Assembly (NCBI GenBank): GCA_018828385.1
Contig: JAHJVE010000023.1
Coordinates: 124,001 to 188,000, forward strand
Length of the DNA: 64,000 nt
Source of the DNA: Gammaproteobacteria bacterium
GTDB taxonomy: Bacteria > Pseudomonadota > Gammaproteobacteria > Burkholderiales > Rhodocyclaceae
Reading direction: 5' to 3'
Shown: piece by piece, positions 32,825-56,196 of the stretch
Layout: the number at the start of each line of letters is the position of its first letter
Position numbering within the stretch: position 1 is the stretch's first letter
The notes under the pieces: generated by a model
Told to the model about the DNA's origin: nothing
Seen by the model: the letters and a program-made list of their open reading frames with translations, nothing else
Database searches by the model: none
Position numbers and translations under genes: made by a program

Positions 32825-32854
32825 TGTAAGAAATTCCCAACTTCTCCGACTAAT
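32825..32854 (+). promoter_or_regulatory. ECF-type promoter 1 (phnD-like operon)
   Basis: TGTAAG (32825-32830), 16-nt spacer starting AAA, and CGACTAAT (32847-32854), 27 bp before the ATG. The same bipartite motif occurs at 35469, 48758 and 51753. Confidence 0.8.
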
Positions 32855-32880
32855 GCCTGAACCCCATTCGGAGAAGCTCC

Positions 32881-33756
32881 ATGAAATCCATCACCCGTCT
32901 TCTTTCCATTTTTGCCGCCTTTTCCCTGTTGACCGTAGCAATCGACGCCAGTGCCGCCGAGCCGCCGCTCAAATTCGGCGTCGGCCTGTTCCAGCCTGAT
33001 CGTGAAAAGAACGACGCGACCTATCGGCCGTTGGCCGACTATCTGGCGAAAAAACTCAAGCGTCCGGTCGAGTTGCGCACCGTCGATAGCTGGGAAGGCC
33101 TCGCCAAGTCGCTGGCCAACGGGGAAACCGACATCGCGCTGCTGGGGCCGTGGGGTTACGTGCTGGCCAATCATCAGGCTGGTGCGCAGGTCATTTCGAC
33201 CATCCTTTACGATGGCAAGCCCGAGTATTTCGCCATCACGATCACCCACCCCAAATCCGGCATCAATACCCTGGCCGACCTCAAGGGCAAGACCTTCGCT
33301 TTCGGCGACAAGGGATCGACTTCCGGTTACCTGATCCCGCTGCACTACCTGATGACACAGGGCATCACGCCGGAAAAGTATTTCAGCAAGGTGGTCCATA
33401 CCTCGCACCAGGCGATCGAAACCCAGGTCACCCAGGGCGTGCTCGATGCCGGCGCCGACTACAACCGCAACCGTAACGCGATGATCGAACAGGGCCTGAT
33501 CAAGGCCGAAGATTCGAAAATTATCTGGACCTCGGCCCCGCTGCCCAATGATGCTTTCGCCGTAAGCGCTGCACTGGCCGGCGACAAAGCGTTGATCGGT
33601 CAACTCCAGGGTGCCCTCGGCGATGTCGGCGAAGCCCTGAAGACCAATCCCAAGCTGCTGCCGCCGCATTACACCGGCTTCGTCAGCCGCGATAACGCGT
33701 TCTACAAGCCGATCCGCGATGCAGGCCTGGCGACCGGAAAACTGCAGGCCAAGTAA
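32881..33756 (+). CDS. PhnD-like ABC transporter substrate-binding protein
   Basis: A 291-residue periplasmic protein of the phosphate/phosphite/phosphonate-binding family: signal peptide, FGVGLFQPDREKNDATYRPL, LANGETDIALLGPWGYVLA, and DKGSTSGYLIPLHYL. No C-P lyase or phosphite dehydrogenase gene is nearby, so its ligand is open. The signal-peptide codons contain a repeat copy (TTGACCGTAGCAATCG). It is first in an operon with permease and ATPase genes, behind ECF-type promoter 1. Confidence 0.87.
   Translation: MKSITRLLSIFAAFSLLTVAIDASAAEPPLKFGVGLFQPDREKNDATYRPLADYLAKKLKRPVELRTVDSWEGLAKSLANGETDIALLGPWGYVLANHQAGAQVISTILYDGKPEYFAITITHPKSGINTLADLKGKTFAFGDKGSTSGYLIPLHYLMTQGITPEKYFSKVVHTSHQAIETQVTQGVLDAGADYNRNRNAMIEQGLIKAEDSKIIWTSAPLPNDAFAVSAALAGDKALIGQLQGALGDVGEALKTNPKLLPPHYTGFVSRDNAFYKPIRDAGLATGKLQAK
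32908..32941 (+). repeat. dispersed repeat copy in the phnD-like signal peptide
   Basis: ATTTTTGCCGCCTTTTCCCT then GTTGACCGTAGCAA: forward copy; its translation supplies the hydrophobic core FAAFSLLTVA of the signal peptide. Confidence 0.7.
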
Positions 33757-34649
33757 TGAGTGTCCACGCCCTGGCGAACCATGTCGTCAATCGTTTCAGC
33801 GGCCGGCTCGGTTTTCTCGGGCTGACGCTGATCTACGTGCTGCTCGTCGCGGCCTGCCTCGGCACGTTGGCGCGCGAAGACGAGCTGTCGCTGGGGCGTA
33901 ATCCGCTGGCCAATCTGGTCAAAACGGTGGGTGAATTCGCCCACCCGAGTTTTCTCGATGTCTGGTTCGGCAACCCGAATCTCGAATACAAGAGCGACGA
34001 CGGCACGGTACTCCGTGTCGAGAACCGCCAGGATGTCGAAGCCGATTACCTGGCCGGCCTCGGCCGCGCCACCTGGACGACCATCCGCATCGCCACCCTC
34101 GGCTCGCTACTCGGTGCCCTCCTCGCCCTGCCGCTGGCCGTGCTGACGGCGCGCAACCTGGCGGCGCCGAAGCCGCTGGCCTGGCTGGCCAAGGGGATGC
34201 TCGACATCGCCCGCTCCATCCACACGCTGGTTTTCGGGCTGGTCCTCGTCGGCATCGTTGGCCTCGGCCCGACTGCCGGCATCCTGGCCATCGGCCTGCA
34301 TTCGATGGGCACTTACGGCAAGCTTTTTGCCGAGGCCATCGAGTCACTCGACATGGCGGCCATCGATGCCGTGCGCAGTGTCGGCGCAACGCCCGACCAG
34401 GTGTTCTTCAACGCCGTCTGGCCTGCGGTGCTGCCGCAATTTGTTTCCAGCCATCTCTATGTCTGGGAATTCAACATCCGCGACTCGACCATCCTTGGCC
34501 TGATCGGCGCCGGCGGGCTCGGCCTGCTGATTACCGAAGCGACCTCGCTTTTTCAGTGGGGACGGCTGTCGACCGTACTGATCGTCATCGTGCTGATGGT
34601 TTCCGCCTTCGACGCCATGAGCCGGCGTATCCGGCAGGCTCTGTCATGA
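33756..34649 (+). CDS. PhnE-like ABC transporter permease
   Basis: A 297-residue inner-membrane permease with about six helices. The EAA loop reads EAIESLDMAAIDAVRSVGAT and the segment IRDSTILGLIGAGGLGLLI is typical of PhnE. Its ATG follows the binding-protein stop within one base; its stop overlaps the ATPase start (ATGA). Works with the flanking genes as an importer. Confidence 0.88.
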   Translation: MSVHALANHVVNRFSGRLGFLGLTLIYVLLVAACLGTLAREDELSLGRNPLANLVKTVGEFAHPSFLDVWFGNPNLEYKSDDGTVLRVENRQDVEADYLAGLGRATWTTIRIATLGSLLGALLALPLAVLTARNLAAPKPLAWLAKGMLDIARSIHTLVFGLVLVGIVGLGPTAGILAIGLHSMGTYGKLFAEAIESLDMAAIDAVRSVGATPDQVFFNAVWPAVLPQFVSSHLYVWEFNIRDSTILGLIGAGGLGLLITEATSLFQWGRLSTVLIVIVLMVSAFDAMSRRIRQALS

Positions 34650-35473
34650 GCGAAATCGCCATTCATTTGCAGCAGGTCTGCTGCATTGCCGAAGGGCGGG
34701 CGCTACTCGATGTCGGCGATCTAAGCATTGGTCACGGCGAGCGCATCGCCATCGTCGGCCACAACGGCGCCGGCAAATCCACCCTGCTCCGCTTGCTGAC
34801 CGGCTTCATGCCGGCTGCGCATGGCCGGGTCGAGGTGCTCGGCCACGACCTGACCGGCAGCCCATCGGCCAAGGAACTGCGCACCCTGCGCCGCGAAGTC
34901 GGGCAAGTCCACCAAGGTCTGCATCTGGTTGGTCGTCTGAGCGCGCTGGAAAACGTGCTGATCGGCAGCCTCGGTCGCGTCACCGGCTGGCGTAGCTGGG
35001 TTCGCCATTTTCCGGTCGACGAGGTCGTCGGGGCCGAAGCCGCCCTGCATGCCGTCGGCCTGCTGGCCCGCGCCACAACACGGGCCGACAAGCTTTCCGG
35101 CGGCGAACGGCAGAAGGTCGCCATCGGCCGCCTGCTCGTCCAGCGGCCCAAACTCATTCTCGCCGACGAGCCGACGGCGGCCCTCGACCCGGCTGCAGCT
35201 GGCGAGGTTTGTCACCTGCTGGCCCAGGCCGCACGCAATGCGACGCTGATCTCTGTCGTTCACAACCCATCCCTGCTGCCTTTGCTGGCCGATCGTGTCA
35301 TCGGCCTGAAAAACGGCCGGATCGCCTTCGATTTGCCGATTGCTACGGTCGACGATCAAAAACTGACCAATTTGTATCGCCCGGACGAGGCCGCGCCCGC
35401 CGCCCCATGGCCAATGACCGCGTCGAATCCATCGAAGCTTGGGCGGCGCCAAATATTTTCAAATCAGGTGTAA
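34646..35473 (+). CDS. PhnC-like ABC transporter ATPase
   Basis: A 275-residue ATPase: Walker [12 protein letters not shown], signature [15 protein letters not shown], Walker [13 protein letters not shown] and switch His in VVHNPSL. The Q-loop reads REVGQVHQG. The stop lies inside the -35 element of the bufferin promoter at 35469, so the two transcription units are packed without a gap. The C-terminus includes a diverged repeat copy. Confidence 0.88.
35339..35375 (-). repeat. diverged dispersed repeat in the PhnC-like gene
   Basis: ATTGCTACGGTCGACGATCA then AAAACTGACCAATTTGT keeps the TAGCAA flank, a CGGTCGAC core and late A/T tract, with mismatches. Confidence 0.45.
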
Positions 35474-35498
35474 TAAATCGCCCTGTTCTCCGACTAAT
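35469..35498 (+). promoter_or_regulatory. ECF-type promoter 2 (bufferin operon)
   Basis: TGTAAT (35469-35474), 16-nt spacer beginning AAAT and ending CTC, and CGACTAAT (35491-35498). One mismatch in the -35 relative to the other sites. It lies 72 bp before the bufferin precursor ATG and overlaps the stop of the upstream ATPase gene. Confidence 0.78.
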
Positions 35499-35570: not shown

Positions 35571-35870
35571 ATGAACAAGACTCTGACCGCCGCTTCCCTC
35601 GCTCTCGCCTTTGGCGCCGCCATGACCGTTGCCTCTGCCCCGGTTGCTGCTGCCGACATGGCCGACAAGGAAAAATGTTACGGCGTCGCCATGAAGGGCA
35701 AGAACGATTGCAAGGCGGGCGCCGGCACCACCTGCGCCGGCACCTCGAAGATGGATCACCAGGGCAACGCCTGGTCGCTCGTCCCCAAGGGTACTTGCGA
35801 AAAGACGATGTCCAAGACCTCGCCGACCGGTCACGGTCAACTCGCCGAATTCAAGGAAAAGAAGGCCTGA
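35571..35870 (+). CDS. bufA: bufferin precursor peptide (DUF2282)
   Basis: A 99-residue protein with signal peptide [20 protein letters not shown]... and a core holding four Cys in [33 protein letters not shown] and PKGTCEKT, the DUF2282 pattern. Bufferins are exported RiPPs in which Cys residues are modified by a DUF692 enzyme so the peptide can bind copper; the modifying pair follows directly. A good AGGAG site precedes the ATG. Modification sites are inferred from the family. Confidence 0.88.
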
Positions 35871-35899: not shown

Positions 35900-36799
35900 A
35901 TGACGACTATCCCTTGTTTCGTGTCGCCAACGGCCGGCACTTCCGCCGCCCGTGCCGCCGCTTTGCCGGCACGCGGCGGCCTCGGCCTCAAGCCCGAGCA
36001 CTTTCGCACCATTATTGAAACCCGGCCCGACCTTGGTTTCTTCGAGATTCATGCCGAAAACTACATGGTCGATGGTGGCCCCTTCCATCACTACCTGACG
36101 CAGATTCGCCGCGACTACCCGCTGTCGATCCATGGTGTCGGTCTTTCCATCGGTGGCGAAGGGCGGCTCGACGAAGACCACCTTGATCGCCTGGCCACGC
36201 TGATCGCCCGCTACGAGCCGCAATCCTTTTCCGAACACCTGGCTTGGTCCAGCCACGGCGACATCTTTCTCAACGACCTGCTGCCGGCGCCTTATAACGC
36301 TGCCACGCTGCACCGCGTCTGCGATCACATCGACCGCGTCCAGGAACGTCTGGGCCGGCGCATGCTGCTCGAAAATCCGGCGACCTACGTCGAATTCGCC
36401 GCATCCACAATGGCCGAAACCGATTTCATCGGCGAAGTCGTCAAGCGCACCGGCTGCGGACTACTGCTCGACGTCAATAACGTTTACGTCTCGTGCACCA
36501 ACCACGGCCGCGATCCGCAAGCCTGCATCGAAGCATTGCCGCTGGCGGCAGCGGGACAAATCCACCTCGCCGGCTACGCGCAGGACATCGATGCGGCCGG
36601 CGCCCCGTTGCTCATCGACAGCCATGGGGCACCGATTTCCCGGGCGGTCTGGGATCTTTACCGCTACACGCTGGAACGCACCGGCCCGCTGCCGACGCTG
36701 ATCGAGCGCGACAACGACATTCCGGCCTTGCCGGTGCTGCTCGCCGAAGCACAACAGGCGGAAGAGCTGCTGCAAGCCTGCCTGAGCGAGGCGGCATGA
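35900..36799 (+). CDS. bufB: multinuclear non-haem iron oxidase, DUF692 (bufferin-modifying)
   Basis: A 299-residue TIM-barrel MNIO enzyme. Likely iron ligands are in [66 protein letters not shown] and LIERDNDIP. With its DUF2063 partner it converts precursor Cys to modified heterocycles. The gene stop overlaps bufC (ATGA). Confidence 0.9.
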
Positions 36800-37545
36800 A
36801 CCAATTCGACTTCGCCAGTGCCCTGCTCGATCCGGATTTGCCCGCCCCGGCCGGGTTGACCGCCTGGAACGGCTCCGACCCGGCGCACCGCTTCCGGATC
36901 TACCGCAACAACGTCATCGTCTCGCTGATCGATGCCCTGGCCGACACCTTCGAGGTGACGCAGCAACTGGTCGGCGAAGACTTTTTCCGGGCCATGGCCA
37001 GGGTGTACGCCTACGGGCATCCGCCACAATCACGCTTGATGGCCTTCTACGGCGCTTCATTCCCCACCTTCATCGCAAGCTTCCCGCCCGCCGCCGCCCT
37101 GCCCTATCTGGCCGACGTGGCGCGGCTCGAATATCTCCGGGTGGTGGCCTACCACGCCGCCGACCTGCCGGGCATCGGCAGCGACGAAGTCGCCGCCGCG
37201 CTGGCGGAGCAAGCCACCTTGCCAACCCTGAAGGTCAGCCTCCACCCCTCGCTGGCCGTTCTAGCCTCGGCCTCCGCCGTGGTTTCGTTGTGGGCCGCCC
37301 ACCAAGGCATTCTGGAATTATCGACGGTGACCACGGACAGCCCGGAAACCGCTCTCGTGCTGCGTCATGGCCTGGATGTGGAGGTCATGCAAATTTCTCC
37401 TGCGGCGGGCGCTTTCATTTCGGCCCTTCAATCCGGAGTCAGCCTGGGCCAGGCCGCCGCAGCGGTTGCCGCCATCGAGGCGGACTTCGATCTGGTCGGC
37501 ACGCTCGGCCTGCTCCTACAAAAATCAGCCATCACGGCGCTATAA
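36796..37545 (+). CDS. bufC: DUF2063 partner protein of the MNIO enzyme
   Basis: A 249-residue protein of the DUF2063 family: N-terminal helical DNA-binding-like domain with [20 protein letters not shown] and [21 protein letters not shown], then a C-terminal alpha/beta part. In bufferin systems this partner binds precursor peptide and supports the DUF692 enzyme. Translationally coupled to bufB. Confidence 0.88.
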
Positions 37546-37562
37546 CCCTCAAGGAGACCGTC

Positions 37563-38063
37563 ATGAACTCGTCCGCAGCCCAAATATGCACCGGGGTCAG
37601 CCGCCTCGTCGCGCTTTTCTCGCGTATCCCCGATTCGCTGATCGCCCTGATCGGTCGCTTTTCCATCGCCGCCATCTTCTGGAAATCCGGCCAGACCAAG
37701 ATCGAGGGCTTCGCCGTCGATCTGGTTGCCGGCGAATTCCAGTTCGGCTGGCCACAGCTCTCGGATTCCGCCCTGGAACTGTTCCGCAGCGAATACCGCC
37801 TGCCGCTGCTGCCGCCCGAACTGGCGGCACCGATGGCCGCCTTCGGCGAGCATGTCTTCCCGGTCCTGATCCTGCTCGGCCTGGCCACCCGTTTCTCGGC
37901 GCTGGCACTGCTCGTCATGACGGCGACCATCCAGATCTTCGTCTACCCCGATGCCTACCCGACGCACGGCGTCTGGGCCACCGTGCTGCTCGTGCTGATC
38001 GCCCGGGGGCCGGGGAAGATATCGCTCGACCACTGGCTGGCCAAACGCTACGCCGCCCGCTAG
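37563..38063 (+). CDS. DoxX-family membrane protein
   Basis: A 166-residue protein with four hydrophobic helices; GRFSIAAIFWKSGQTKIEGF and HVFPVLILLGLATRFSALAL are typical of DoxX proteins found as the last gene of DUF2282-DUF692-DUF2063 operons. Role in the bufferin pathway is not established; redox or export support is possible. AAGGAG precedes the ATG. Confidence 0.87.
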   Translation: MNSSAAQICTGVSRLVALFSRIPDSLIALIGRFSIAAIFWKSGQTKIEGFAVDLVAGEFQFGWPQLSDSALELFRSEYRLPLLPPELAAPMAAFGEHVFPVLILLGLATRFSALALLVMTATIQIFVYPDAYPTHGVWATVLLVLIARGPGKISLDHWLAKRYAAR

Positions 38064-38540: not shown

Positions 38541-40778
38541 ATGGATCGCATCGTCGATTCGGAAATCGCGCATTTGACGCGTTTTGGCGAGATCGCCCAA
38601 CCCGGCGACGCCGTGCCAGGACTGCTGAGCCCGTCGCTGACGCTGAACTCTCCGGTCGGCATCTGCCTCGACCGCCGCGGCAATGCCTGGGTCTGCGATA
38701 CCGGCAACAACCGGCTGCTGGTCTTCGATGCCGCGCTGACCGAGTTGCGCCACGTGCTCCACGCGCCGGCCGAGGGGCAGAAAGGCGCCGCCGGCCTCGC
38801 CTTCCGCATGCCCTTCCACGTTTGCCCGCATCCCGACGAGGATCGCGTCTTCATCACCGACATGGGCAACAGCCGGGTCGTCGTCATGGATTGCGCCGGC
38901 GCCGTGCCGCGCTTCGCCGGTACCATCGGCGACCAGGCCACGGACGGCTTCGCGCCGCTGCAGGATCCAAACGGCATCACGCTGGTCCGTCAGGCCGACG
39001 GCTCCTGCCACGTTTTCGTCAACGACGAGTTCTTCCACAACGCCAGCGAGCCGATGCGCAACCGCTGCGTGCGCTTCGATGCGCAGGGCAACTATGTTTC
39101 CGAGTTCCGCACGGTTGTCGTCGACGGCAAGCGGCATGACCTCTACTGGCCGCAGGGCCTGGCGTCGGATGCCGAGGGCAACCTCTACGTCGCCAACACC
39201 GGCAGCTACGAGATCCTGCGCGTCGCATCAGGCGCGGCGGTCGATGCCGATTTCACCGTGCACGCGGGCAAGGCGGTGGTCGCCCACCGCTTCGGCCAGC
39301 CGCGCGGCATGGGCATGCTCAACATTATGCGCGACGTCAATGTCATCGGCGACCGCGTCTTTGTTCCCGACCACGTGCAGAACGCGATCTCGGTCTATCA
39401 CACCGACGGCCGGCCGCTGGCCACGGTCAGCGGCATCCGGGCCGGCTGGCACCACGGGCTGGAGCCGATGCGCTCGGCCACCGACCCGCTCTACTACCTC
39501 CTCGAAGATGCCGCGCTGGTCAGCCCCTACGTGATCTGCGACGGTGGCGAGCCGGACGTCTATTTCATCAGCGAGCCATTCACCTCGCGCATTCTCAAGG
39601 TACGTATCGAATTCGACGGCAGCGCGCAGACCAGCGTCGACATGCTCGCCGCCGTCGGCGGCCGGCGCGACGAGCTGGCCCCGGCCAATGGCCAGGGTGC
39701 CCCGGCGGTCGGCCAGTTCAATTGCGTGACCTCAGTGATCAGCCTGCCGCCAACGCAATCCTCGGCGCCCGGGCGTGGCATGGCGACGCCGGAGATCTCG
39801 CCCTGGCTGCGCTGGCCGGCAGCGGCGAGCGCCGCACTGGCTGGCCAGTACGATTTCTGGTGGGGCGGCCTGGCCCGGCAGATGCTGGCCCAGGCCGGCA
39901 CCGGCGAACGCCTTGCGGCGACGCGGATCACGCTCGATGCCGGCAACTGGCGGCTGACCGGTTGCCGCGCCGAGGGCGACGGCTACGTCGCCGCCGGTGT
40001 CCGCGTCGACGGCTGGTTCCTCGCCGGCAACCTGGGCATGGCCACCTTCGCCCCGGACTTTCCGCTGCTCGGGCAAGTGGTGCCGGGCTCGCCGATCCTG
40101 CTCGTCGGCAACTTCAACATGGGCACGATCAGCCTGTACCAGGTCGGGCCGCTCGGCAACCTGATCAACTATGGCGTGCCCTTCGGCCGGCACGGAAGCG
40201 GCCCGGCCTGCATCGCCGGCCCACAGGGCATGGCGGCGCGTGCCGACGGCATGGTGTACATCGCCGACACGCTGAACAACCGCATGTCGCAGTGGCAGAT
40301 CCTGTCCAGCGGCAGCGCCACCTTTGTCCGCAACTTCGTCTGGCCCGGCCACGAACGTGGCGCGGCAGCCTTCACGCCGACCGACGCGGTGCTCGCCGGC
40401 GATGGCCGGCTCTACGTCACCGATCAGTTCAACAACCGCATCTGCGTTTTCGACGGCGACGGCCAGCCGCTGTTCGCCTTCGGCAAGCAGGGCTACTGGG
40501 AAGAAGGCGAGCCCGACGGCGAGCGCTTCATGCTGCCGACCAGCCTGGCCATCGACGGCGACCGGCTGATCGTCAACGACCTGGTCAACCGCGCCCTGAA
40601 GGTATTCAAGCTCGGCAACGGCGCCCCGCGCTTCGCGTCGGGCATTTCGCTGTTCAAGCGGACGACGGAGCAAGGCGGCGTCTGGATGCCGTTCCTGATG
40701 CATGCGCACGACGGGCGCGTATACGTTGCCGATTCGACCTACAACATCGTCCAGGTCTATAGCTGCCAAGCGGGCTGA
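38541..40778 (+). CDS. NHL-repeat beta-propeller protein
   Basis: A 745-residue protein with repeated propeller strands such as SPVGICLDRRGNAWVCDTGN, HVFVNDEFFHNA, YWPQGLASDAEGNLYVANTG, GPQGMAARADGMVYIADTLN and GDGRLYVTDQFNNRICVFDG. No signal peptide is seen, so it may be cytoplasmic or exported by an unusual route. ATG 38541 follows GGAGGGGAC. It lies 31 bp before the giant kinase gene, so it may supply or sense its signal. Confidence 0.8.
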   Translation: MDRIVDSEIAHLTRFGEIAQPGDAVPGLLSPSLTLNSPVGICLDRRGNAWVCDTGNNRLLVFDAALTELRHVLHAPAEGQKGAAGLAFRMPFHVCPHPDEDRVFITDMGNSRVVVMDCAGAVPRFAGTIGDQATDGFAPLQDPNGITLVRQADGSCHVFVNDEFFHNASEPMRNRCVRFDAQGNYVSEFRTVVVDGKRHDLYWPQGLASDAEGNLYVANTGSYEILRVASGAAVDADFTVHAGKAVVAHRFGQPRGMGMLNIMRDVNVIGDRVFVPDHVQNAISVYHTDGRPLATVSGIRAGWHHGLEPMRSATDPLYYLLEDAALVSPYVICDGGEPDVYFISEPFTSRILKVRIEFDGSAQTSVDMLAAVGGRRDELAPANGQGAPAVGQFNCVTSVISLPPTQSSAPGRGMATPEISPWLRWPAAASAALAGQYDFWWGGLARQMLAQAGTGERLAATRITLDAGNWRLTGCRAEGDGYVAAGVRVDGWFLAGNLGMATFAPDFPLLGQVVPGSPILLVGNFNMGTISLYQVGPLGNLINYGVPFGRHGSGPACIAGPQGMAARADGMVYIADTLNNRMSQWQILSSGSATFVRNFVWPGHERGAAAFTPTDAVLAGDGRLYVTDQFNNRICVFDGDGQPLFAFGKQGYWEEGEPDGERFMLPTSLAIDGDRLIVNDLVNRALKVFKLGNGAPRFASGISLFKRTTEQGGVWMPFLMHAHDGRVYVADSTYNIVQVYSCQAG

Positions 40779-40809
40779 CCCTGCCCCGCCCGCCGGAGAA
40801 ACAACACAG

Positions 40810-47649: not shown

Positions 47650-48611
47650 ATCATCGGTCCAAGCAACGCGTGCTCGTCGTCGAAGACGAGAAAATCAGCC
47701 GCACCATCCTTTCTGCATTGCTCAAGGACGAGTTTCAGGTGATCCTGGCCAAGAGCGGCGAACAGGCGCTGGAGCGGCTGGCCAGCGACGACCAGATCGA
47801 CCTGATCCTGCTCGATGTGCTGATGCCCGACATGGACGGCCACGAAGTGCTGCGCCGGATCAAGGCCGGCGACGCGACGCGCGATATTCCGGTGGTCTTC
47901 ATTACGGCGCTGAATTCGACCAACGACGAGGAGAAGGGGCTCAAGCTCGGGGCCAGCGATTACATCGGCAAGCCCTTCAGCCCGGCCATCGTCAAGGCGC
48001 GCGTCTCCAACCTGCTGCGTTTCGTCCGCCAGCGCAAGCTGCTCGAAACCCTGGCCGGCCGCGACGGGCTGACCGAGATCCCCAACCGCCGTGCTTTCGA
48101 CCAGGCGCTGTTGCAGGAAATCGCGCGCAGCCTGCGCGGTGGGCAGACCTTTTCGCTGGGCCTGATCGACGTCGATTTCTTCAAGCAATACAACGACTGC
48201 TATGGCCACGCCGCCGGCGACAGCACGCTCAAGCAGGTGGCGAAGACCGTGGTCGACGCACTGCGCCGGCCAACCGACCTCGCCGCCCGTTACGGCGGCG
48301 AGGAGTTCGTGTTCATCCTGCCCGACTCTGATGCGGCCGGTGGGGTTGAGGTAGCCGAGGCGATCCGCCAGCTCGTGGCCGAACTCGGCATCGAACACGG
48401 GAAGTCGGTAGTGGCGCCGCATGTCACCATTTCGGTTGGCGGCGTCACCGTCAGCGGGCATCACGGCAGTGCCGAGGAACTGCTGATGGCGGCAGACCGG
48501 CAACTCTACGAGGCCAAGCGCCTTGGTCGCAATCGCGTCTGCTGGTCGGCACCGGCGCCGGCCGTCGTTGGGCAGACCGCGCCGGCGGCCGACAGCGACG
48601 CCTGCGCCTGA
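47646..48611 (+). CDS. response regulator with GGDEF diguanylate cyclase output
   Basis: A 321-residue protein: receiver (8-125; phosphoacceptor Asp in LILLDVLMPDMDG, Lys in IGKPFSP), linker, and GGDEF domain (about 140-300) with active site RYGGEEFVF and substrate motif DVDFFKQYND. No RxxD inhibitory site lies just before GGEEF (ARYGGEEF is preceded by PTDLA). It should make c-di-GMP when phosphorylated by the upstream kinase's HPt. Start overlaps that gene. Confidence 0.93.
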   Translation: MNHRSKQRVLVVEDEKISRTILSALLKDEFQVILAKSGEQALERLASDDQIDLILLDVLMPDMDGHEVLRRIKAGDATRDIPVVFITALNSTNDEEKGLKLGASDYIGKPFSPAIVKARVSNLLRFVRQRKLLETLAGRDGLTEIPNRRAFDQALLQEIARSLRGGQTFSLGLIDVDFFKQYNDCYGHAAGDSTLKQVAKTVVDALRRPTDLAARYGGEEFVFILPDSDAAGGVEVAEAIRQLVAELGIEHGKSVVAPHVTISVGGVTVSGHHGSAEELLMAADRQLYEAKRLGRNRVCWSAPAPAVVGQTAPAADSDACA

Positions 48612-48839: not shown

Positions 48840-50984
48840 ATGCAATTCCGCAAGCTGGCATTGGCACTGACGATTGGCCTGGCGATAGCCGGTTTCTTCG
48901 TCTTTGACCTCGGGCAATACCTCAATCTCCAGACGCTCAAGGCGCAACAGGCGGCCATCCAGTCTTTCCAGGCAAACAACCCGCTCCTCAGCGTCGCCGC
49001 CTATTTCATCCTGTACGTCATCGCGACCGCCCTCTCCTTTCCGGGCGCCGCGCTGCTCACCCTGGCCGGCGGTGCCGTATTCGGGCTGCTCTGGGGCACG
49101 GTGATTGTTTCCTTCGCCTCGACCATCGGCGCTACCTTAGCCTTCCTGATGTCGCGTTTTCTGCTGCGCGACTGGGTGAGCCGGCGTTTCGGTCAGCGTC
49201 TGGCAGCCATTGACGAGGGCGTTCGCCGTGAAGGCGGCTTTTACCTCTTCACCTTGCGCCTGGTGCCCGCTTTCCCGTTCTTCCTGGTCAATCTGTTGCT
49301 GGGCCTGACGGCGATGAAGACCTGGACTTACTTCTGGGTCAGCCAGCTTGGCATGCTGGCCGGCACGGTGGTGTACGTAAACGCTGGCACCCAGTTGGCC
49401 AGGCTCGACTCGCTGTCCGGCATCCTTTCGCCGGCCTTGCTTGGCTCGTTTATCCTGCTCGGCATCTTTCCCCTGATCGCCCGCAAGCTGGTGGAGATCG
49501 TTCGCATGAACAAGGTGTTCGCCAACTGGAAGAAGCCCGCCCGCTTCGACCGCAATCTGGTGGTCATCGGCGGCGGTAGCGCCGGTCTGGTCACTTCCTA
49601 CATCGCTGCTGCCGTCAAGGCCAAGGTCACCCTGGTCGAAAAGCACAAGCTGGGCGGCGATTGCCTGAATACCGGCTGCGTCCCCTCGAAGGCGCTGATC
49701 CGCTCGGCCAAGTTCCTGTCGCATGTCACCCGTTCGCAGGAATTCGGCATCGCTTCAGCCAGCGCCGAGTTCGAGTTTTCCGATGTGATGCAACGCGTGC
49801 AGGCGGTGATCAAGACCGTCGAGCCACACGACTCGGCCGAGCGTTACACCGAACTGGGTGTCGATGTCGTGCGCGGCAGCGCCAGGATCGTTTCGCCGTG
49901 GGAGGTCGACATCACCCGCGAAGATGGCAGCACCCAGCGCCTGACCACGCGCAGCATCGTCATCGCCACCGGCGCCCGACCTTTCGTGCCGCCGATTCCG
50001 GGCATCGAGGAAGTCGGCTATCTGACCTCGGACAATGTCTGGAACCTGCGCGAATTGCCCAAGCGCCTGGTTGTTCTCGGTGGCGGCCCGATTGGCTCTG
50101 AACTGACGCAGGCCTTCGCCCGACTTGGCGCCCAGGTGACCCAGGTGGAAATGGCGCCGCGCATCATGATGCGTGAAGACCCGGAGGTTTCCGAACTGGT
50201 CGCCGAGCGTTTCCGGGCAGAAGGAATTGATGTTCTGCTCAATCACCGCGCCAAGCAGTTCATCATCGACAACGGCGAGAAGATCCTGATCGCCGAAAAT
50301 GAAGGACAGGATGTCCGGATTCCGTTCGATGCTGTGCTGGTTGCCGTCGGCCGCGCCGCCAATCTGACCGGCTTCGGTCTGGAAGAACTGGGCATTCCGA
50401 CCGGGCGCACGGTGGACACCAACGAGTTCCTGCAAACCAATTACCCGAATATCTACGCTGCCGGCGACGTCGCCGGTCCTTTCCAATTCACCCACACCGC
50501 CGCCCATCAAGCCTGGTATGCCGCGGTCAACGCCCTGTTCGACCCGTTCAGGAAATTCAAGGCCGATTATTCGGTGATCCCGTGGGCTACCTTCGTCGAG
50601 CCCGAGGTCGCCCGCGTCGGCCTCAACGAACTGGAAGCCAAGGAAAAAGGCATTCCCTACGAAGTCACCACCTACGGCATCGACGACCTCGACCGGGCCA
50701 TTGCCGACAGCGAAGCGCATGGTTTGCTCAAGGTGCTGACCGTGCCGGGCAAGGACAAGATCCTCGGCATCACCATCGTCGGCGAACATGCCGGCGACCT
50801 GATCGCCGAATACGTGCTGGCCATGAAGCAAGGCATCGGGCTGAACAAGATCCTCGGCACCATCCACATCTACCCGACGCTGGCCGAGGCCAACAAGTAC
50901 GTCGCCGGCAACTGGAAGAAGGCGCACGCGCCGCAAAAGCTGCTGGTCTGGGTCGAACGTTTTCATGCCTGGCGCCGTGGGTAA
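48840..50984 (+). CDS. DedA/TVP38 membrane domain fused to pyridine nucleotide-disulfide oxidoreductase
   Basis: A 714-residue fusion. Residues 1-225 form a TVP38/DedA-type membrane domain (FPGAALLTLAGGAVFGLLWG; FTLRLVPAFPFFLVNLLLG). Residues 240-700 are a mercuric reductase/lipoamide dehydrogenase-like flavoprotein: FAD site VVIGGGSAGLV, redox-active GGDCLNTGCVPSK, NAD(P) site LGGGPIGSELTQAF, and GDVAGPFQFTHTA. The N-terminal metal-binding domain and C-terminal Cys pair of MerA are missing. Likely a membrane-tethered disulfide or metal-related reductase. An ECF-type promoter precedes it. Confidence 0.88.
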   Translation: MQFRKLALALTIGLAIAGFFVFDLGQYLNLQTLKAQQAAIQSFQANNPLLSVAAYFILYVIATALSFPGAALLTLAGGAVFGLLWGTVIVSFASTIGATLAFLMSRFLLRDWVSRRFGQRLAAIDEGVRREGGFYLFTLRLVPAFPFFLVNLLLGLTAMKTWTYFWVSQLGMLAGTVVYVNAGTQLARLDSLSGILSPALLGSFILLGIFPLIARKLVEIVRMNKVFANWKKPARFDRNLVVIGGGSAGLVTSYIAAAVKAKVTLVEKHKLGGDCLNTGCVPSKALIRSAKFLSHVTRSQEFGIASASAEFEFSDVMQRVQAVIKTVEPHDSAERYTELGVDVVRGSARIVSPWEVDITREDGSTQRLTTRSIVIATGARPFVPPIPGIEEVGYLTSDNVWNLRELPKRLVVLGGGPIGSELTQAFARLGAQVTQVEMAPRIMMREDPEVSELVAERFRAEGIDVLLNHRAKQFIIDNGEKILIAENEGQDVRIPFDAVLVAVGRAANLTGFGLEELGIPTGRTVDTNEFLQTNYPNIYAAGDVAGPFQFTHTAAHQAWYAAVNALFDPFRKFKADYSVIPWATFVEPEVARVGLNELEAKEKGIPYEVTTYGIDDLDRAIADSEAHGLLKVLTVPGKDKILGITIVGEHAGDLIAEYVLAMKQGIGLNKILGTIHIYPTLAEANKYVAGNWKKAHAPQKLLVWVERFHAWRRG

Positions 50985-50989
50985 TCGGC

Positions 50990-51745
50990 ATGTGCTCAGA
51001 CCAAAAACAACCGGCGATCTTTCTCGCCATGGCGCTCGCCGTGCCGTTGGCTGCCTGGGCCGACCCGCTCTGGCTTGGACGATTCAGCGCGAGCGATGCC
51101 GCCATTCCGGCCCCGTGGAAAATTGAGCACCTTGACCGGCGCGTACCGCCGACCGAATACAAACTGCGCCAATGGGACGGCGTGGTTGCCATCGAGGCCA
51201 GGGCCAGCAAGAGCATGGCCTTGCTCGGACGGACTGCTACGGTCAACCTGAAAAAAACGCCAATTTTGTGCTGGCAATGGCGGATCGACGCGCCTGTGGC
51301 TTCCGCCGACATGAATCGCAAATCCGGCGACGATTACGCCGCGCGGGTCTATCTGACCTTTGCCGTACCGCCGGAGCAACTGGGTTTTGCGACGCGAACC
51401 AAGCTCAGTCTGGCGCGTACGATCTACGGCGACCAGGTACCGGATGCGGCATTGAATTACATCTGGGACAACCGTCACCCGGTCGGCACCTTGCAGGACA
51501 ACGCTTACACGGATCGGGCGCGTATGCTGGTGCTGCGCTCCGGCGCTCGACAGGCCGGCGTCTGGGTGCAGGAACGACGGAATGTCCTGGCCGATTTTCA
51601 CAAGGCATTTGGCGAGATCGGTGGCGAACTGCAAGGGCTGGCCATCGCTTCGGATACCGACAACACCGGCGAAGAGGCGCATGCCGGCTTTGCGGATTTC
51701 CGTTTTGTTGAAAGCGAAGAGGCTTGCCCGATCACGAAAAACTGA
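50990..51745 (+). CDS. exported DUF3047 protein
   Basis: A 251-residue protein with a signal peptide (ending near PLAAWADP) and the DUF3047 pattern: KSMALLGRTATVNLKKTPIL, LCWQWRIDAP, DDYAARVYLTFAVP and ALNYIWDNRHPVG. It starts 5 bp after the upstream oxidoreductase stop and is probably co-transcribed from ECF-type promoter 3. A repeat copy encodes the TVNLKKTP segment. Function of the family is unknown. Confidence 0.8.
   Translation: MCSDQKQPAIFLAMALAVPLAAWADPLWLGRFSASDAAIPAPWKIEHLDRRVPPTEYKLRQWDGVVAIEARASKSMALLGRTATVNLKKTPILCWQWRIDAPVASADMNRKSGDDYAARVYLTFAVPPEQLGFATRTKLSLARTIYGDQVPDAALNYIWDNRHPVGTLQDNAYTDRARMLVLRSGARQAGVWVQERRNVLADFHKAFGEIGGELQGLAIASDTDNTGEEAHAGFADFRFVESEEACPITKN
51234..51268 (-). 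repeat. dispersed repeat copy inside the DUF3047 gene
   Basis: CTGCTACGGTCAACCTGAAA then AAAACGCCAATTTTG: reverse-orientation copy with one core mismatch, in frame within a conserved part of the protein. Confidence 0.75.
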
Positions 51746-51792: not shown

Positions 51793-52491
51793 ATGAACAC
51801 GCCAGCGCTCTCCATCATCATCCCCGTGCTGAACGAAGCCGCTGGCATTGTTCCGGTGCTTGAACGCCTGCAGGAATTTCGCCGGCAAGGCGCGGAAGTC
51901 ATCGTGGTCGATGGCGGGAGTGCCGATGCTACGGTCGAGCTTGCCAGCTCCCTGGCCGATGGCGTGACCGGTTCGCAGCGCGGCAGAGGTCGGCAAATGA
52001 ATGCCGGGGCAGCCCGGGCGACGGGAGACGTCTTCTTGTTTCTGCACGCCGACACGCTTTTGCCGTCGTCTGCCCTGAGCTTGATCATCGAGGCCGTCAA
52101 CAACGGTGCCTGCTGGGGACGCTTCGACGTCCATATCGAAGGCTCGATCAGCGGTCTTGGCATGGTAGCTTTCATGATGAATTGGCGCTCCCGCCTGACT
52201 GGCATCGCGACAGGTGATCAAGCCATATTCGTTACGCGGGAGGCCTTCCAACGCCACGGCGGATTCCCGGCCATTCCCCTGATGGAAGACATCGTGTTTT
52301 CGGGCTGGATGCGAGCAGAAGCACGCCCGGCCTGCCTCAAGGCAAAGGTCACGACCTCGGGACGGCGCTGGGAAAAGCATGGCCTGCTGCGCACCATCCT
52401 GACCATGTGGTGGCTGCGTCTGCGCTTTTTCCTGGGCGCCAGCCCGACTGCGCTGGCCCGAGAGTATGGATACATCCCTCATGAAACCTGA
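51793..52491 (+). CDS. TIGR04283-type glycosyltransferase
   Basis: A 232-residue GT-A family 2 enzyme: LSIIIPVLNEAAGI, VIVVDGGSADAT, RGRGRQMNAGA, FLHADTLLP and TGDQAIFVTRE. The TIGR04283 group is named for arsenosugar loci, but no arsM or arsS gene is in this window, so substrate is open. It begins the sigma-factor operon; the chosen ATG follows ECF-type promoter 4. Confidence 0.87.
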   Translation: MNTPALSIIIPVLNEAAGIVPVLERLQEFRRQGAEVIVVDGGSADATVELASSLADGVTGSQRGRGRQMNAGAARATGDVFLFLHADTLLPSSALSLIIEAVNNGACWGRFDVHIEGSISGLGMVAFMMNWRSRLTGIATGDQAIFVTREAFQRHGGFPAIPLMEDIVFSGWMRAEARPACLKAKVTTSGRRWEKHGLLRTILTMWWLRLRFFLGASPTALAREYGYIPHET

Positions 52492-53140
52492 GACCACGCT
52501 GCGTATCGAGATTGCCATTCTGGCCAAGGCACCGATTGCCGGGCTGGCCAAGACGCGACTCATTCCGCACCTCGGCGCCGATGGGGCTGCCGCCCTGCAA
52601 CGCTGGCTATTGCAGCGGACGGTGGCGGCGGCCGTGGTCGCCGATCTTGGACCGGTCACTTTGTGGTGCGCCCCGGATATTAACCACCCGGAGTTTGCCG
52701 TTTGCCGTGCATTTGGCGCGGTGGCCTTGCGCCGCCAACCGGATGGCGACCTCGGACAGCGCATGCATGCCGCTATCGCCGAATCTTCGACCAGTGCAGG
52801 AACGCTGGTCATTGGAACTGATTGCGCCGTATTGACCCCAGGCCTGTTGCGCCAGGCGGCAGAAAGCTTGCAGCAGCACGACGCGACGGTCGTTCCGGCC
52901 GAAGACGGCGGCTATGTCCTGATCGGCATGCGCGAAGCCGGCCGGGATGCTTTCCACGCGGTGGACTGGAGCACGGAACGGGTGATGGCCCAGACCCGGG
53001 CTCGCCTGACAGCCATGAATTGGCGATGGAGCGAATTTCCTCCCTTGTGGGATGTCGACCGCAAGGAGGACTTTGAGCGTCTGGCGGAGCTCTTCCCGGA
53101 TGCCCGCGCCCTTGCCCCGCAGATCGCGGCACTCGAATGA
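52481..53140 (+). CDS. TIGR04282/DUF2064-type nucleotidyl- or glycosyltransferase
   Basis: A 219-residue protein with a CofC/MobA-like fold: AILAKAPIAGLAKTRLIPHLG, DLGQRMHAA, LVIGTDCAVLTPGLL and PAEDGGYVLIGM. It is the usual partner of TIGR04283 glycosyltransferases. The start at 52481 overlaps the preceding gene; an in-frame ATG at 52466 is also possible. Its stop overlaps the oxidoreductase start. Confidence 0.85.
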   Translation: MKPETTLRIEIAILAKAPIAGLAKTRLIPHLGADGAAALQRWLLQRTVAAAVVADLGPVTLWCAPDINHPEFAVCRAFGAVALRRQPDGDLGQRMHAAIAESSTSAGTLVIGTDCAVLTPGLLRQAAESLQQHDATVVPAEDGGYVLIGMREAGRDAFHAVDWSTERVMAQTRARLTAMNWRWSEFPPLWDVDRKEDFERLAELFPDARALAPQIAALE

Positions 53141-54279
53141 AACATCTGGTTCTGGCCGGCGGCGGCCATGCTCATCTCCATGTTCTGAAGGCCCTCGCGG
53201 CGTGTCCATGGCCGGGCGTCGAGGTCACGCTGATTTCGCCCTACGCCCGGCAGATCTATTCCGGCATGTTGCCGGGGTGGATGGCGGGTCATTACCGCCT
53301 GGATCAATGCGCGGCCGCCCTCGAACCGCTGCTCAAGGCAGCGAAGGTCCGTTTCATTCAGGATAGCGTGAGCGGCCTGGATGCCCGGCGGCGGATCGTT
53401 CAAACCCAGCACTCAGGCGACATCGCCTATGACGACCTGTCGCTGGATACCGGCGCTCAGGTCGATGCCTCCTGCCTGGCAGCCACCGGGGCCAAGCTGT
53501 TGGCGATCCGTCCAATCGAGAGTTTTGTGGTCGACTGGACGCAGCAGGTCGACCGCTTCAAGCAAAACGGAAAGGCCAGTCTCGCCGTCGTTGGCGGCGG
53601 TGCGGCAGGGGTCGAGCTGGCCCTGGCCGCCCGTTATCGACTGAGCCTCGAAATGGGTGCGAACAAGGTACAGGTGATATTGATCGCCGGATCGGGGCTG
53701 TTGCCCGGGCACGGCTCGAGTATCGTCAGACGAGTCGCCCACACCCTGGCGCGCCGTCAGATCGAGGTCGTCCAAGGCTATGCGGCGGGATGTTCATCCG
53801 GCCTTCAGTTGAGCGACGGCACAACCATTCCAGTCGATTGCGTCATCGCCGCCACCGGCGTAAAGCCGGCGGCCTGGCTGGCCGATTCCCGGCTGGCGCT
53901 GGCGCCGGATGGCTTCATTGCGGTGCAGGACGGGCAGCAAAGCGTTTCGCACCCGGAAGTCTTTGCCGCCGGCGATGTGGCATCGCGTATCGACGCTCCG
54001 CATGCCAAGTCGGGCGTTTATGCCGTGCGCGCCGGCCCCGTCCTGGCCGGCAACCTGCATCGCGTGTTGAATGGCCTGGCGCCGCTGGCTTACCAGCCAC
54101 AGAAGCGCAGCCTCTACTTGCTGGCCACCGGCCCCAAGGAGGCCATCATGTCCTGGGGCGGACTCTCGGCCGGTGGCGGCTGGGCCTGGAAATGGAAGGA
54201 TTGGATCGACCGGCGCTTCATGAGGCAGTACGATCTGGCCCCGGAGAACGGAATGGGAGAAGAACATGAGCCTGCTTAA
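53137..54279 (+). CDS. FAD-dependent NAD(P)H oxidoreductase of the SelD-associated type
   Basis: A 380-residue flavoprotein: N-terminal GGGHAHLHVLKALA and YSGMLPGWMAGHY are typical of oxidoreductases that occur alone or fused to selenide water dikinase. A second nucleotide site is VVGGGAAGVELALAA, and FAD site VFAAGDVASRID. No SelD domain is present. It probably transfers electrons from NAD(P)H to a quinone or thiol acceptor. Flanked by overlapping genes of the sigma operon. Confidence 0.85.
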   Translation: MKHLVLAGGGHAHLHVLKALAACPWPGVEVTLISPYARQIYSGMLPGWMAGHYRLDQCAAALEPLLKAAKVRFIQDSVSGLDARRRIVQTQHSGDIAYDDLSLDTGAQVDASCLAATGAKLLAIRPIESFVVDWTQQVDRFKQNGKASLAVVGGGAAGVELALAARYRLSLEMGANKVQVILIAGSGLLPGHGSSIVRRVAHTLARRQIEVVQGYAAGCSSGLQLSDGTTIPVDCVIAATGVKPAAWLADSRLALAPDGFIAVQDGQQSVSHPEVFAAGDVASRIDAPHAKSGVYAVRAGPVLAGNLHRVLNGLAPLAYQPQKRSLYLLATGPKEAIMSWGGLSAGGGWAWKWKDWIDRRFMRQYDLAPENGMGEEHEPA

Positions 54280-55162
54280 GGAAATTGGTCAGCTTTTCGC
54301 TGGCCAGGGCGAAAGCCGGGGCAATTACCAGGAAGACCTGTTGCGCAGCCTTCTCGTCATGGCCTGGATGGTCGAGGCGCGCGACCCTTACACCGGCGGC
54401 CATTTGTGGCGGGTCTCCCGGTTTTCGCGCTTGCTGGCCAGCGAACTCGATTTGCCGGACAGCGATGTGGCGCGCATCAGCCTGGGCGGGTTCCTGCACG
54501 ATCTTGGCAAGGTCGGCGTGCCGGATCAGATCCTGAACAAGAAAGACCGCCTGACCGACGAAGAGTACGAAGTCATCAAAACCCACCCCGATGTCGGCTG
54601 GCGGATGCTGGCCGGGCATCCCTTGGCAGGGCTCGCCGAAACGGCCATCCGGGCGCACCATGAAATGCCGAACGGCAAGGGGTATCCGCGCGGTCTCGCC
54701 GGCACGGACATTCCGCTCGATGCGCGCATCGTCGGCATCTGTGATGCCTTCGACGCCATGACCAGCACCCGCCCCTATCGCCGCGGCATGTCCATCGAGA
54801 AAGCCCTGGCGATTATCGCGGAAAATCTTGGCGGCCAATTCGACCGGGCGTTTGGCGAACGTTTCGTGGCGCTCGGCCAGGCAGGTGCGCTGGACCACAT
54901 CGTTGGTCACAGCGACGAAGGCATTCCGTTGCACGAATGCATGATGTGCGGCCCAATCCTGGTCCTGCGCAAGGGGCAACAGGCCGGCGATCATGTTTAT
55001 TGCCGCAGTTGCACCGGCGAATATGTGACCGCGCTGGAAGCCGGGCGACTGGTCACCCAGCCCACCGGCAAGCTGGGCAAACCGCAGGACGTGGAACCGG
55101 AGGCTGATAACGAGTTGATCAGTCGCCTGGTCCTTGAATCGGCTCGCGCCCTGCTGGCATGA
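54266..55162 (+). CDS. HD-GYP domain protein with C-terminal Cys pairs
   Basis: A 298-residue protein. The HD-GYP domain (about 25-200) has GGHLWRVSRF, FLHDLGKVGVPDQIL, HPDVG, IRAHHEMPNGKGYP and DAFDAMTSTRPYR, matching active c-di-GMP phosphodiesterases. The C-terminal part has CMMC and YCRSC, a likely zinc ribbon. It overlaps the oxidoreductase gene by 14 bp. It may link c-di-GMP turnover to the ECF response. Confidence 0.88.
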   Translation: MSLLKEIGQLFAGQGESRGNYQEDLLRSLLVMAWMVEARDPYTGGHLWRVSRFSRLLASELDLPDSDVARISLGGFLHDLGKVGVPDQILNKKDRLTDEEYEVIKTHPDVGWRMLAGHPLAGLAETAIRAHHEMPNGKGYPRGLAGTDIPLDARIVGICDAFDAMTSTRPYRRGMSIEKALAIIAENLGGQFDRAFGERFVALGQAGALDHIVGHSDEGIPLHECMMCGPILVLRKGQQAGDHVYCRSCTGEYVTALEAGRLVTQPTGKLGKPQDVEPEADNELISRLVLESARALLA

Positions 55163-55178
55163 GCAACATGGAAAACGT

Positions 55179-55415
55179 ATGGCATTTCTAAGCACACTCC
55201 TGCAGACTGCCTTCAGGCGCTCCATCGTTCAGGCAGCGATCAAGGTGGCCATTGTTGTCGGCACGATATTGAACCTGATCAATCAGGGCGGCCGGCTGCT
55301 TGATGGCTTGCCGCTCTCCTGGTTTCATGTCGGCCTGAACTATCTGGTGCCTTACTGCGTATCCAGTTACAGCGCCGCGCGCAACGAAATGCGCCGCAAT
55401 GAGGAAAAGGCATGA
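55179..55415 (+). CDS. NrtS-like small membrane protein
   Basis: A 78-residue protein with two hydrophobic helices (IVQAAIKVAIVVGTILNLIN and FHVGLNYLVPYCVSSYSA). The VGTILNLINQG and VPYCV segments match the NrtS nitrate/nitrite transporter family. ATG 55179 is chosen by alignment; the stop overlaps the sigma-factor start (ATGA). A nitrate role is not evident from neighbours. Confidence 0.75.
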   Translation: MAFLSTLLQTAFRRSIVQAAIKVAIVVGTILNLINQGGRLLDGLPLSWFHVGLNYLVPYCVSSYSAARNEMRRNEEKA

Positions 55416-56011
55416 ATGCCGGTGTGAATCTGCTGATCGACGACGTGTATCTGGCCGAGATCCGGCGCGACATGATCAAGTTCGCCCATCTGCAACTGCG
55501 GGACGAGGCACAGGCCGAGGATGTGGTGCAGGAAGCACTGGTCGCCGCCCTGGACAACACCAGGGAATTTGCCGGTCGATCAGCCGTGAAGACCTGGATT
55601 TTCGCCATCCTGAAAAACAAGATCGTCGATCTGATCCGCCTGCAAGTACGCACCACCAATGTCTCCGCGCTGTCGACCGAAGAGGAAAGCCTGGATCAGG
55701 CCTTCGAGTCGCTGTTCAAGACCAATGCCCACTGGTCGCCGGGGTCTCGGCCGAGCAACTGGGGCGATCCGGAAGAGTCGCTGCGCGAACAACGTTTCTG
55801 GGAGGTCTTTGATGCCTGCCTCAAGCACCTGCCGGCAAACACGGCACGCGTCTTCATGATGCGCGAATTCCTCGAGTTCGAGACCGCCGAGGTTTGCCAG
55901 GAGTTGAGTCTCACGACAAGCAATTGCAATGTCATCCTGCACCGGGCGCGCAATGGCTTGCGCCGTTGTCTGGAATCAAACTGGTTTTCTGCTGGAGAGC
56001 AGCCATGCTGA
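55412..56011 (+). CDS. ECF RNA polymerase sigma factor
   Basis: A 199-residue ECF sigma factor. Region 2 (about 15-85): LRDEAQAEDVVQEALVAALD and FAGRSAVKTWIFAILKNKIVDLIR. Region 4 (about 130-190): LKHLPANTARVFMMREFLEFETAEVCQELSLT in pattern, then NCNVILHRARNGLRRCL. A long insert rich in Ser and Trp separates the regions. It overlaps the anti-sigma gene. Four matching promoters, including one heading its own operon, suggest its regulon. Confidence 0.93.
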   Translation: MNAGVNLLIDDVYLAEIRRDMIKFAHLQLRDEAQAEDVVQEALVAALDNTREFAGRSAVKTWIFAILKNKIVDLIRLQVRTTNVSALSTEEESLDQAFESLFKTNAHWSPGSRPSNWGDPEESLREQRFWEVFDACLKHLPANTARVFMMREFLEFETAEVCQELSLTTSNCNVILHRARNGLRRCLESNWFSAGEQPC

Positions 56012-56196
56012 GTTGTAAGGAAGTCACCCATTTGCTGTCCGAAGCGCAGGACAGAAAACTGACGCTGTCAGAGAAAATGCATTTGGAAATGCACCTGGCC
56101 ATGTGCAAGGGGTGTACGAATTTCAAAAGCCAGATGAGATTCTTGCGCGAGGCTTGCAAGCGATACGTGAAAGCCAAGAGCAGCGTGGACGAGTAG
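56005..56196 (+). CDS. zinc-finger anti-sigma factor (zf-HC2)
   Basis: A 63-residue protein with the ZAS motif: His in MHLEMHL and Cys pair in MCKGC (HxxxCxxC). Such small anti-sigma factors hold an ECF sigma and release it on thiol oxidation or metal stress. The start overlaps the sigma gene by 7 bp, consistent with matched production. No transmembrane helix is present, so sensing is cytoplasmic. Confidence 0.9.
   Translation: MLSCKEVTHLLSEAQDRKLTLSEKMHLEMHLAMCKGCTNFKSQMRFLREACKRYVKAKSSVDE

Follow-up and report, generated by a model that had tools for sequence, protein, structure and literature searches.

A candidate ECF sigma regulon of the sigmaE/MseR type with arsenosugar-family and bufferin genes in Rhodocyclaceae

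We analysed a 64,000-nucleotide (nt) stretch of a Rhodocyclaceae genome (GenBank assembly GCA_018828385.1, contig JAHJVE010000023.1, positions 124,001 to 188,000; hereafter the window), in which four bipartite sites of the form TGTAAG-N16/17-CGACTAAT precede genes for an importer, a bufferin operon, a membrane oxidoreductase and an operon that ends in an extracytoplasmic function (ECF) sigma factor and its zinc-finger anti-sigma factor. The genome (G000) comprises 4.30 Mb in 24 contigs, is 99.55% complete, and holds a fifth site outside the window. The sites, their uniqueness, their conservation and the gene content behind them were observed directly. The promoter set is real, and it very probably belongs to an ECF regulon of a known type with unusual, conserved contents. 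With considerable confidence, we read these sequences as a redox switch of the Neisseria sigmaE/MseR type that would drive five promoters in a response to thiol and metal(loid) stress. What is new is the contents of the regulon: ArsS, two 'arsenosugar' glycosyltransferases, a fusion of DedA with a disulfide reductase, an HtxB-like ATP-binding cassette (ABC) importer and, in relatives, an enzyme resembling 5'-methylthioadenosine (MTA) phosphorylase. We found no paper linking an ECF sigma factor to arsenosugar genes in the literature searched, which mostly excluded subscription papers.

The four sites in the window all lie on the forward strand. P1 (32825-32854, TGTAAG-N16-CGACTAAT) ends 26 nt before the ATG at 32881, P2 (35469-35498, TGTAAT-N16-CGACTAAT) 72 nt before the ATG at 35571, P3 (48758-48788, TGTAAG-N17-CGACTAAT) 51 nt before the ATG at 48840, and P4 (51753-51782, TGTAAG-N16-CGACTAAT) 10 nt before the ATG at 51793, at the head of the sigma operon. 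An initial annotation made from the window alone had described these sites, and its positions, its 16/16/17/16 spacing, its distances of 10-72 nt, its three exact TGTAAG copies, and its placing of one site ahead of the operon ending in the ECF sigma and anti-sigma genes all held. A motif scan also bore out its statement that the 64-kb window has no further copy besides P1-P4. The CGACTAAT word occurs four times on the two strands of the window, a count reached by 0 of 100 shuffles (mean 0.61), and the three exact-TGTAAG copies compare with an expectation of 0.00.

The genome-wide scan that the initial annotation had called for returned five matches to TGTAA-N16-19-CGACTAAT and none to the reversed-letter control. 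The additional match, P5, lies on another contig (G000:C18:233084-233113), 26 nt 5' of an ArsS-family gene, and heads an arsS-msrB-msrA operon. A looser form ending in CGACTA recovered the same five sites in the whole genome, with 5+5 in the reversed controls. When up to two mismatches were allowed, the five known sites stood alone at 0-1 mismatch; seven extra sites (three N16, four N17) had exactly two. Because these extras were fewer than the matches to the reversed controls (7+9 and 11+11), a clean gap separates the five sites from background.

The sites recur in relatives. Judged by the DedA fusion, for which 80 named loci were kept of 154 found, the closest named loci include L175 ('HGW-Betaproteobacteria-4', 97%), L220 (Dechloromonas MAG-193, 92%), L221 (Rhodocyclaceae X1_MetaBAT.22, 91%) and L179 (Azonexus, 88%). 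P1 and P2 are retained in L175, 5' of phnD and bufA respectively. At P3, L175 and L221 keep both boxes, the -35 and the -10, unchanged but diverge in the spacer, and L221 has a match at the position of P4, where an MTA-phosphorylase-like gene follows. This pattern bears on a possible origin of the four sites as a repeat or mobile element copied close to start codons. The near-identity of the hexamers and octamers would fit such an origin, but little is conserved beyond the two boxes, and we rejected it as exceedingly improbable because the spacers diverge. Across motif sites, where the pattern presets the boxes and information comes from the flanks and free letters alone, little was shared outside the boxes apart from an A enriched 6 nt past CGACTAA (0.62 of 32 N16 sites and 0.53 of 19 N17 sites). 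Measured from the 8-letter -10, this A falls one base short of the Neisseria start A.

We then surveyed 150 genomes of the same family for the motif and for homologues of the sigma factor (E<=1e-20), ArsS, ArsM and PhnD (E<=1e-60). Besides the strict motif we used a looser form, TGTAAG-N16/17-CGACYAA, a wrong-spacing control (N20/21) and reversed-letter controls that keep neither word. The looser motif gave 91 matches (43 forward, 48 reverse) in 50 of the 150 genomes, as against 7 matches in 7 genomes at the wrong spacing; the reversed-letter controls changed little with spacing (49 at N16/17 versus 34 at N20/21). The sigma homologue was present in 73 genomes. Seventeen of the 18 genomes with the strict motif were sigma-positive (p=1.8e-5, kinship ignored); the remaining genome, G132, retains a fragment of the sigma gene where a contig ends. 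Genomes with the looser motif were sigma-positive in 43 of 50 cases (p=3.6e-11, kinship again ignored).

The motif also sits at particular genes. Upstream counts included gene matches that exceeded identity thresholds, started no more than 25 residues from the query start and had 260 nt of upstream sequence present; identical upstream regions were counted once, and the motif was sought in the 250 nt 5' of the gene. Loci fetched with the DedA protein only, with the motif unused, had the motif upstream of bufA (5/10), arsS (7/20), the DedA fusion (15/75), phnD (1/6) and the anti-sigma gene (1/16). It was absent upstream of the MNIO, DUF2063 and DoxX genes (0/12 each), GT2 (0/23), TIGR04282 (0/25), DUF3047 (0/10), TIGR03169 (0/6), PhnE (0/4), PhnC (0/6), MsrA (0/3), sigma (0/14), msrB (0/4) and HD-GYP (0/6) genes of these loci. 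Over all 18 genes, the controls gave one case at the wrong spacing and four on the opposite strand. Sigma-fetched loci had the motif upstream of bufA (6/10), arsS (4/10) and DedA (4/9). For all loci, a few of which were fetched via the motif, the counts were bufA 11/21, arsS 13/32, DedA 19/84, sigma 2/81, anti-sigma 3/74, HD-GYP 1/15, PhnD 1/7 and MsrB 1/8. None of the ten inner genes tested had the motif upstream; it stands at operon heads.

The 16/17 spacing across genera, the co-occurrence with the sigma factor, the operon-head position and the likeness to a published Neisseria sigmaE promoter support the view that the motif behaves like the promoter of this ECF sigma family, and with it the candidate ECF-sigma regulon first proposed from the window. 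The spacing, the co-occurrence and the Neisseria likeness also argue against the motif being the promoter of another ECF sigma factor, or the operator of an ordinary regulator, with its linkage to this sigma incidental. So do the site heading the sigma operon and the single homologue of the sigma factor in G000 at E<=1e-20. The seven motif genomes without a homologue at that threshold would suit such an incidental linkage, although one of them is G132 with its cut fragment, and we judge this alternative improbable.

Several observations weigh against the motif as promoter of this sigma factor. The reversed-letter background of the looser motif is sizeable (49 versus 91), the co-occurrence p-values ignore kinship among genomes, and the sigma factor has no match at E<=1e-20 in 7 of 50 motif genomes and 10 of 39 ArsS genomes. 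Motif-less copies of the module are common (60/75 DedA fusions and 13/20 arsS genes in the DedA-fetched loci), and the motif is rarely found directly 5' of the sigma gene (2/81, with 5/81 on the opposite strand). P4 is degraded rather than retained in the close relative L175, and the motif is absent 5' of all 29 TIGR04283 (GT2) genes in fetched loci; by conservation, P4 is the weakest of the sites. PhnD homologues are rare (3 of 150 genomes), and no motif match turned up in the sequence fetched around the three such copies in G018 and G079. An independent-pairs test on the sigma tree had too few pairs to be informative, and in it the bufferin genes leaned the opposite way (mean 0.5 pairs for, 1.3 against). 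Comparing the motif near sigma with the module near sigma gave p=0.057, and with module or bufferin p=0.024. On the same tree, a quick one of 69 rows, the presence of module genes near sigma requires nine changes, of which supported branches force five; these may reflect an early gain and repeated losses. Transcription from P3 may also continue into the sigma operon, since P4 starts 8 nt past the stop codon of the DUF3047 gene.

The genes behind the window promoters are all on the forward strand. P1 precedes a phnD-like substrate-binding protein gene (32881-33756; Phosphonate-bd 4.6e-57, closest solved structure HtxB at 6.7e-48), a phnE-like permease gene (33756-34649; TIGR01097, 234 bits, above its cut-off of 216.7) and a phnC-like ATPase gene (34646-35473, start inferred; ABC_tran, and TIGR02315 at 200.9 bits, under its cut-off of 266.1). 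P2 precedes bufA, encoding a DUF2282 bufferin-type precursor (35571-35870; PF10048 3.8e-24; BufA2 model score 24.9, under the cut-off of 60), bufB for an MNIO maturase of DUF692 (35900-36799; NF050167, 385 bits, cut-off 310), bufC for the DUF2063 partner (36796-37545; PF09836 5.4e-25) and a DoxX membrane protein gene (37563-38063, start inferred; PF07681 8.6e-16 on a longer frame, 37452-38060). With a DUF2282 precursor, an MNIO above cut-off and a DUF2063 partner, the genes behind P2 qualify as a bufferin (BufABC) cluster. P3 precedes the gene for a fusion of a DedA/VTT domain with a MerA/lipoamide-dehydrogenase-like disulfide oxidoreductase (48840-50984; VTT_dom, Pyr_redox_2, Pyr_redox_dim) and a DUF3047 gene (50990-51745, start inferred; PF11249 2.9e-71).

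The operon behind P4 begins with a GT2 glycosyltransferase of the TIGR04283 'arsenosugar' family (51793-52491; 272 bits, cut-off 182), a TIGR04282 'arsenosugar' glycosyltransferase-like protein (52466-53140; 187.8 bits, cut-off 134) and a TIGR03169 pyridine nucleotide-disulfide oxidoreductase (53137-54279; 360.8 bits, cut-off 310). These are followed by an HD-GYP-type phosphodiesterase (54266-55162; HD_5 3.2e-36, with HHE..GKGYP in the translation) and an NrtS-like small membrane protein (55179-55415; NF038050, 41.1 bits, cut-off 25), whose gene sits between the HD-GYP and sigma genes and overlaps the sigma start by 4 nt. The operon ends with the ECF sigma factor of the TIGR02943 family (55412-56011; 264.9 bits, cut-off 162.2; Sigma70_r2 and r4_2) and a 63-residue zinc-binding anti-sigma (ZAS)-type factor (56005-56196; NF052368, 76.3 bits, cut-off 50; zf-HC2; C4/H30/C34/C37).

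Other genes lie close by. The error-prone DNA polymerase gene dnaE2 (56729-59896, reverse strand; PRK05672, 1462 bits) is beside the sigma operon, and an overlapping reverse-strand open reading frame (59842-61428), which has no NCBIfam match at 1e-20, looks like ImuB by context. Upstream of P3, a 2315-residue protein (40702-47649, forward strand) combines a Ser/Thr kinase, AAA_16, GAF, a histidine kinase, two receiver domains and Hpt, and is followed by a receiver-GGDEF protein (47646-48611). The window scan found no motif 5' of either gene.

The gene directly 3' of P5 encodes an ArsS-family radical SAM protein (TIGR04167, 442.9 bits, cut-off 300; locus L138). MsrB and then MsrA follow, each above its own cut-off, and by eye both look exported. 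L220 carries motif-arsS-phnDEC-msrB-msrA and then motif-DedA fusion; this contiguity indicates that P5 and the in-window promoters serve one gene set. In genome G019 (L070), the motif stands side by side at the bufA, DedA...sigma-antisigma and arsS operons. Genes within about 260 nt 3' of the motif in relatives include MsrP, a name that also covers YedY proteins (by model in L173, and through alike N-termini in L043-L045), MsrB (L051, 64% identity), and thioredoxin-like, HvfA-like, DUF3179 and YnjB-type binding protein genes. Motif-following MTA-phosphorylase-like genes occur in L221 (TIGR01694 261.4, just under the cut-off of 274.85) and L248 (41% identity to the L221 gene). The remaining motif-downstream frames resemble nothing known or follow probable chance sites. 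The YnjB-type proteins lie in two other genera (L199 8640-9842, by model; L253, by its alike N-terminus) and may serve the same module as a second kind of importer. At L125 (G079:C150, 3951-14351), in another genus, a block with PhnDEC, a partial MsrB match and a bufferin operon shows 77-94% identity, and it may have moved horizontally. The window alone could not reveal the fifth member elsewhere in the genome, the importer beside arsS in five other loci, the motif-led MsrP, MsrB, HvfA-like and MTA-phosphorylase-like genes of relatives, or the published relative of the promoter.

We examined what the ArsS genes imply. ArsS above cut-off was found in 39 of the 150 genomes, 29 of them sigma-positive (p=1.7e-4, kinship ignored); the looser motif lies directly 5' of arsS in 10 of the 39, including one (G009) without a sigma match. 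The set resembles the arsenosugar pathway in its ArsS family member, its TIGR04282/TIGR04283 proteins and, in relatives, its MTA-phosphorylase-like genes, but differs in that G000 lacks an ArsM above cut-off and in its association with a redox-type sigma factor, Msr and bufferin genes. The best ArsM score in G000 was 50.5 bits against a cut-off of 263 (15 of 21 candidates scored). A canonical ArsM above cut-off occurs in 4 of the 150 genomes, and none of these is an ArsS genome (0 of 39). Ten ArsS genomes hold an ArsM-like gene of divergent type (163-258 bits), and in six of them its position places it right next to arsS; one, in G019 (L070 10815-11852), encodes an ArsM-like methyltransferase scoring 173 bits. 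These neighbours are possibly an unnamed subfamily. The other 29 ArsS genomes, G000 among them, have no ArsM-like gene at the 163-258-bit level.

The ArsM counts favour an alternative in which the regulon is real but its ArsS/TIGR04282/TIGR04283 module acts on another element or molecule, such as sulfur, selenium or phosphorus, rather than arsenic, its names having been transferred. Against this stand the 443-bit ArsS score in G000, above the cut-off of 300, the ArsM-like gene beside arsS in G019 and five more genomes, and the MTA-phosphorylase-like genes behind the motif in L221 and L248, which would fit the removal of adenine from an adenosyl-arsenical. A review describes an ArsS radical SAM enzyme reported to adenosylate arsenic (PMC12159101). 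We see the non-arsenic alternative as a substantial possibility that falls short of being the probable one.

In five named loci (L181, L182, L220, L226, L237), arsS has a PhnDEC importer as its neighbour, and an MTA-phosphorylase homologue (at least 35% identity) occurs in 3 of 34 ArsS loci (L106, L182, L248). Importer and ArsM-like gene were never found together in the fetched stretches of these 34 loci (five and eight singly), which is not significant (about 0.24 by hand); two of the eight ArsM-like loci, L135 and L189, come from one genome. The PhnD-like protein best matches HtxB (166.5 bits), with weaker matches to PtxB and to ArrX and AioX, which we take to be linked to arsenic. It retains the LPND aspartate, presumably a ligand residue of HtxB-type binding proteins. 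The importer beside arsS, the absence of ArsM above cut-off from G000 and the lack of co-occurrence suggest a reading in which the importer would take up methylated arsenicals, viewed as phosphonate mimics, ArsS would adenosylate them, and an MTA-phosphorylase-type enzyme and the two glycosyltransferases would complete an arsenosugar. Under redox-sigma control, such a pathway would contribute to a joint defence against arsenic, copper and oxidants. We offer this reading tentatively and consider it rather unlikely as a whole.

In the proposed mechanism, thiol oxidants or thiol-binding metals would disarm the zinc anti-sigma factor (56005), and the freed ECF sigma factor (55412) would steer RNA polymerase to the five TGTAAG-N16/17-CGACTAAT promoters. 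P1-P3 would drive the PhnDEC-type importer, the bufferin operon and the DedA-disulfide-reductase/DUF3047 operon. P4 would drive the sigma factor's own operon, with the two 'arsenosugar' glycosyltransferases, the oxidoreductase, HD-GYP, NrtS, sigma and anti-sigma, and the off-window promoter would drive arsS-msrB-msrA. The resulting thiol and metal(loid) stress response would repair oxidised methionine, chelate copper through bufferin, reduce disulfides and act on an organoarsenical or similar substrate. If this is true, the ArsS/'arsenosugar' set gains a regulator and a physiological setting in thiol and metal stress, arsenosugar genes become connected with bufferins and with the repair of methionine sulfoxide, and the importer and DedA-oxidoreductase become proposed parts of the pathway. 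The benefit of arsenosugars to bacteria would then be directly testable, through a sigma factor that deletion of a 63-residue anti-sigma could switch on.

The Neisseria sigmaE operon, as we understand it, contains DUF692/DUF2282 genes, whereas sigma and bufferin genes occupy separate operons in the window genome. Bufferin (MNIO) clusters share the bufferin operon with our locus, but sigma and NrsF anti-sigma genes are reported in Buf1 clusters where a zinc anti-sigma is found here (PMC12452194); the words arsenosugar, PhnD and ABC are absent from the main text of that paper. Under metal stress, Caulobacter sigmaF governs a YedY gene as well as DUF2282-DUF692-DUF2063-DoxX operons; its anti-sigma is a DUF1109 protein of six transmembrane helices, and its promoter reads GTAACC-N16-CGAA (PMC3511200). 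We rejected a sigmaF/NrsF type for our switch, as it needs a multi-pass membrane anti-sigma (DUF1109/NrsF) and the protein here is a 63-residue zf-HC2 protein. In the RpoE2/HrsE system of Haemophilus influenzae, an ECF sigma whose partner is a small ZAS anti-sigma controls msrAB under hypochlorite stress (PMC7907618); the second target is a dmt transporter, and autoregulation is very limited. RpoE2/HrsE and sigmaF are functional cousins of our switch.

The closest counterpart is sigmaE (NMB2144) with MseR (NMB2145) of Neisseria meningitidis, whose promoter is given as GTMAGBWTT, a spacer of 12-13 and CGTCTAAH, and whose targets are its own operon and msrA/msrB (Hopman et al., PMC2893595; see also PMC3240639 for the regulon). 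Written as GTAAG, 16-17 nt and CGTCTAA, that promoter differs from GTAAG-N16/17-CGAC(T/C)AA here in the third letter of the -10, which is A and not T. Both systems have a small ZAS anti-sigma beside the ECF sigma and an operon with a DoxX-like gene; they also share autoregulation and MsrA/MsrB control, which in G000 are predicted from the motif at the head of the sigma factor's own operon and of the msrB/msrA-containing one. The available published descriptions of the Neisseria regulon differ in that ArsS, glycosyltransferases, PhnDEC, the DedA fusion and HD-GYP are not met there. MseR is a small ZAS anti-sigma with Cys4, His30, Cys34 and Cys37 (PMC2893595), and the window anti-sigma has H-x3-C-x2-C plus Cys4 at C4, H30, C34 and C37, the same numbering. 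From the Neisseria-like promoter and these matching residues, we classify the switch as very probably an ECF regulon of the sigmaE/MseR type.

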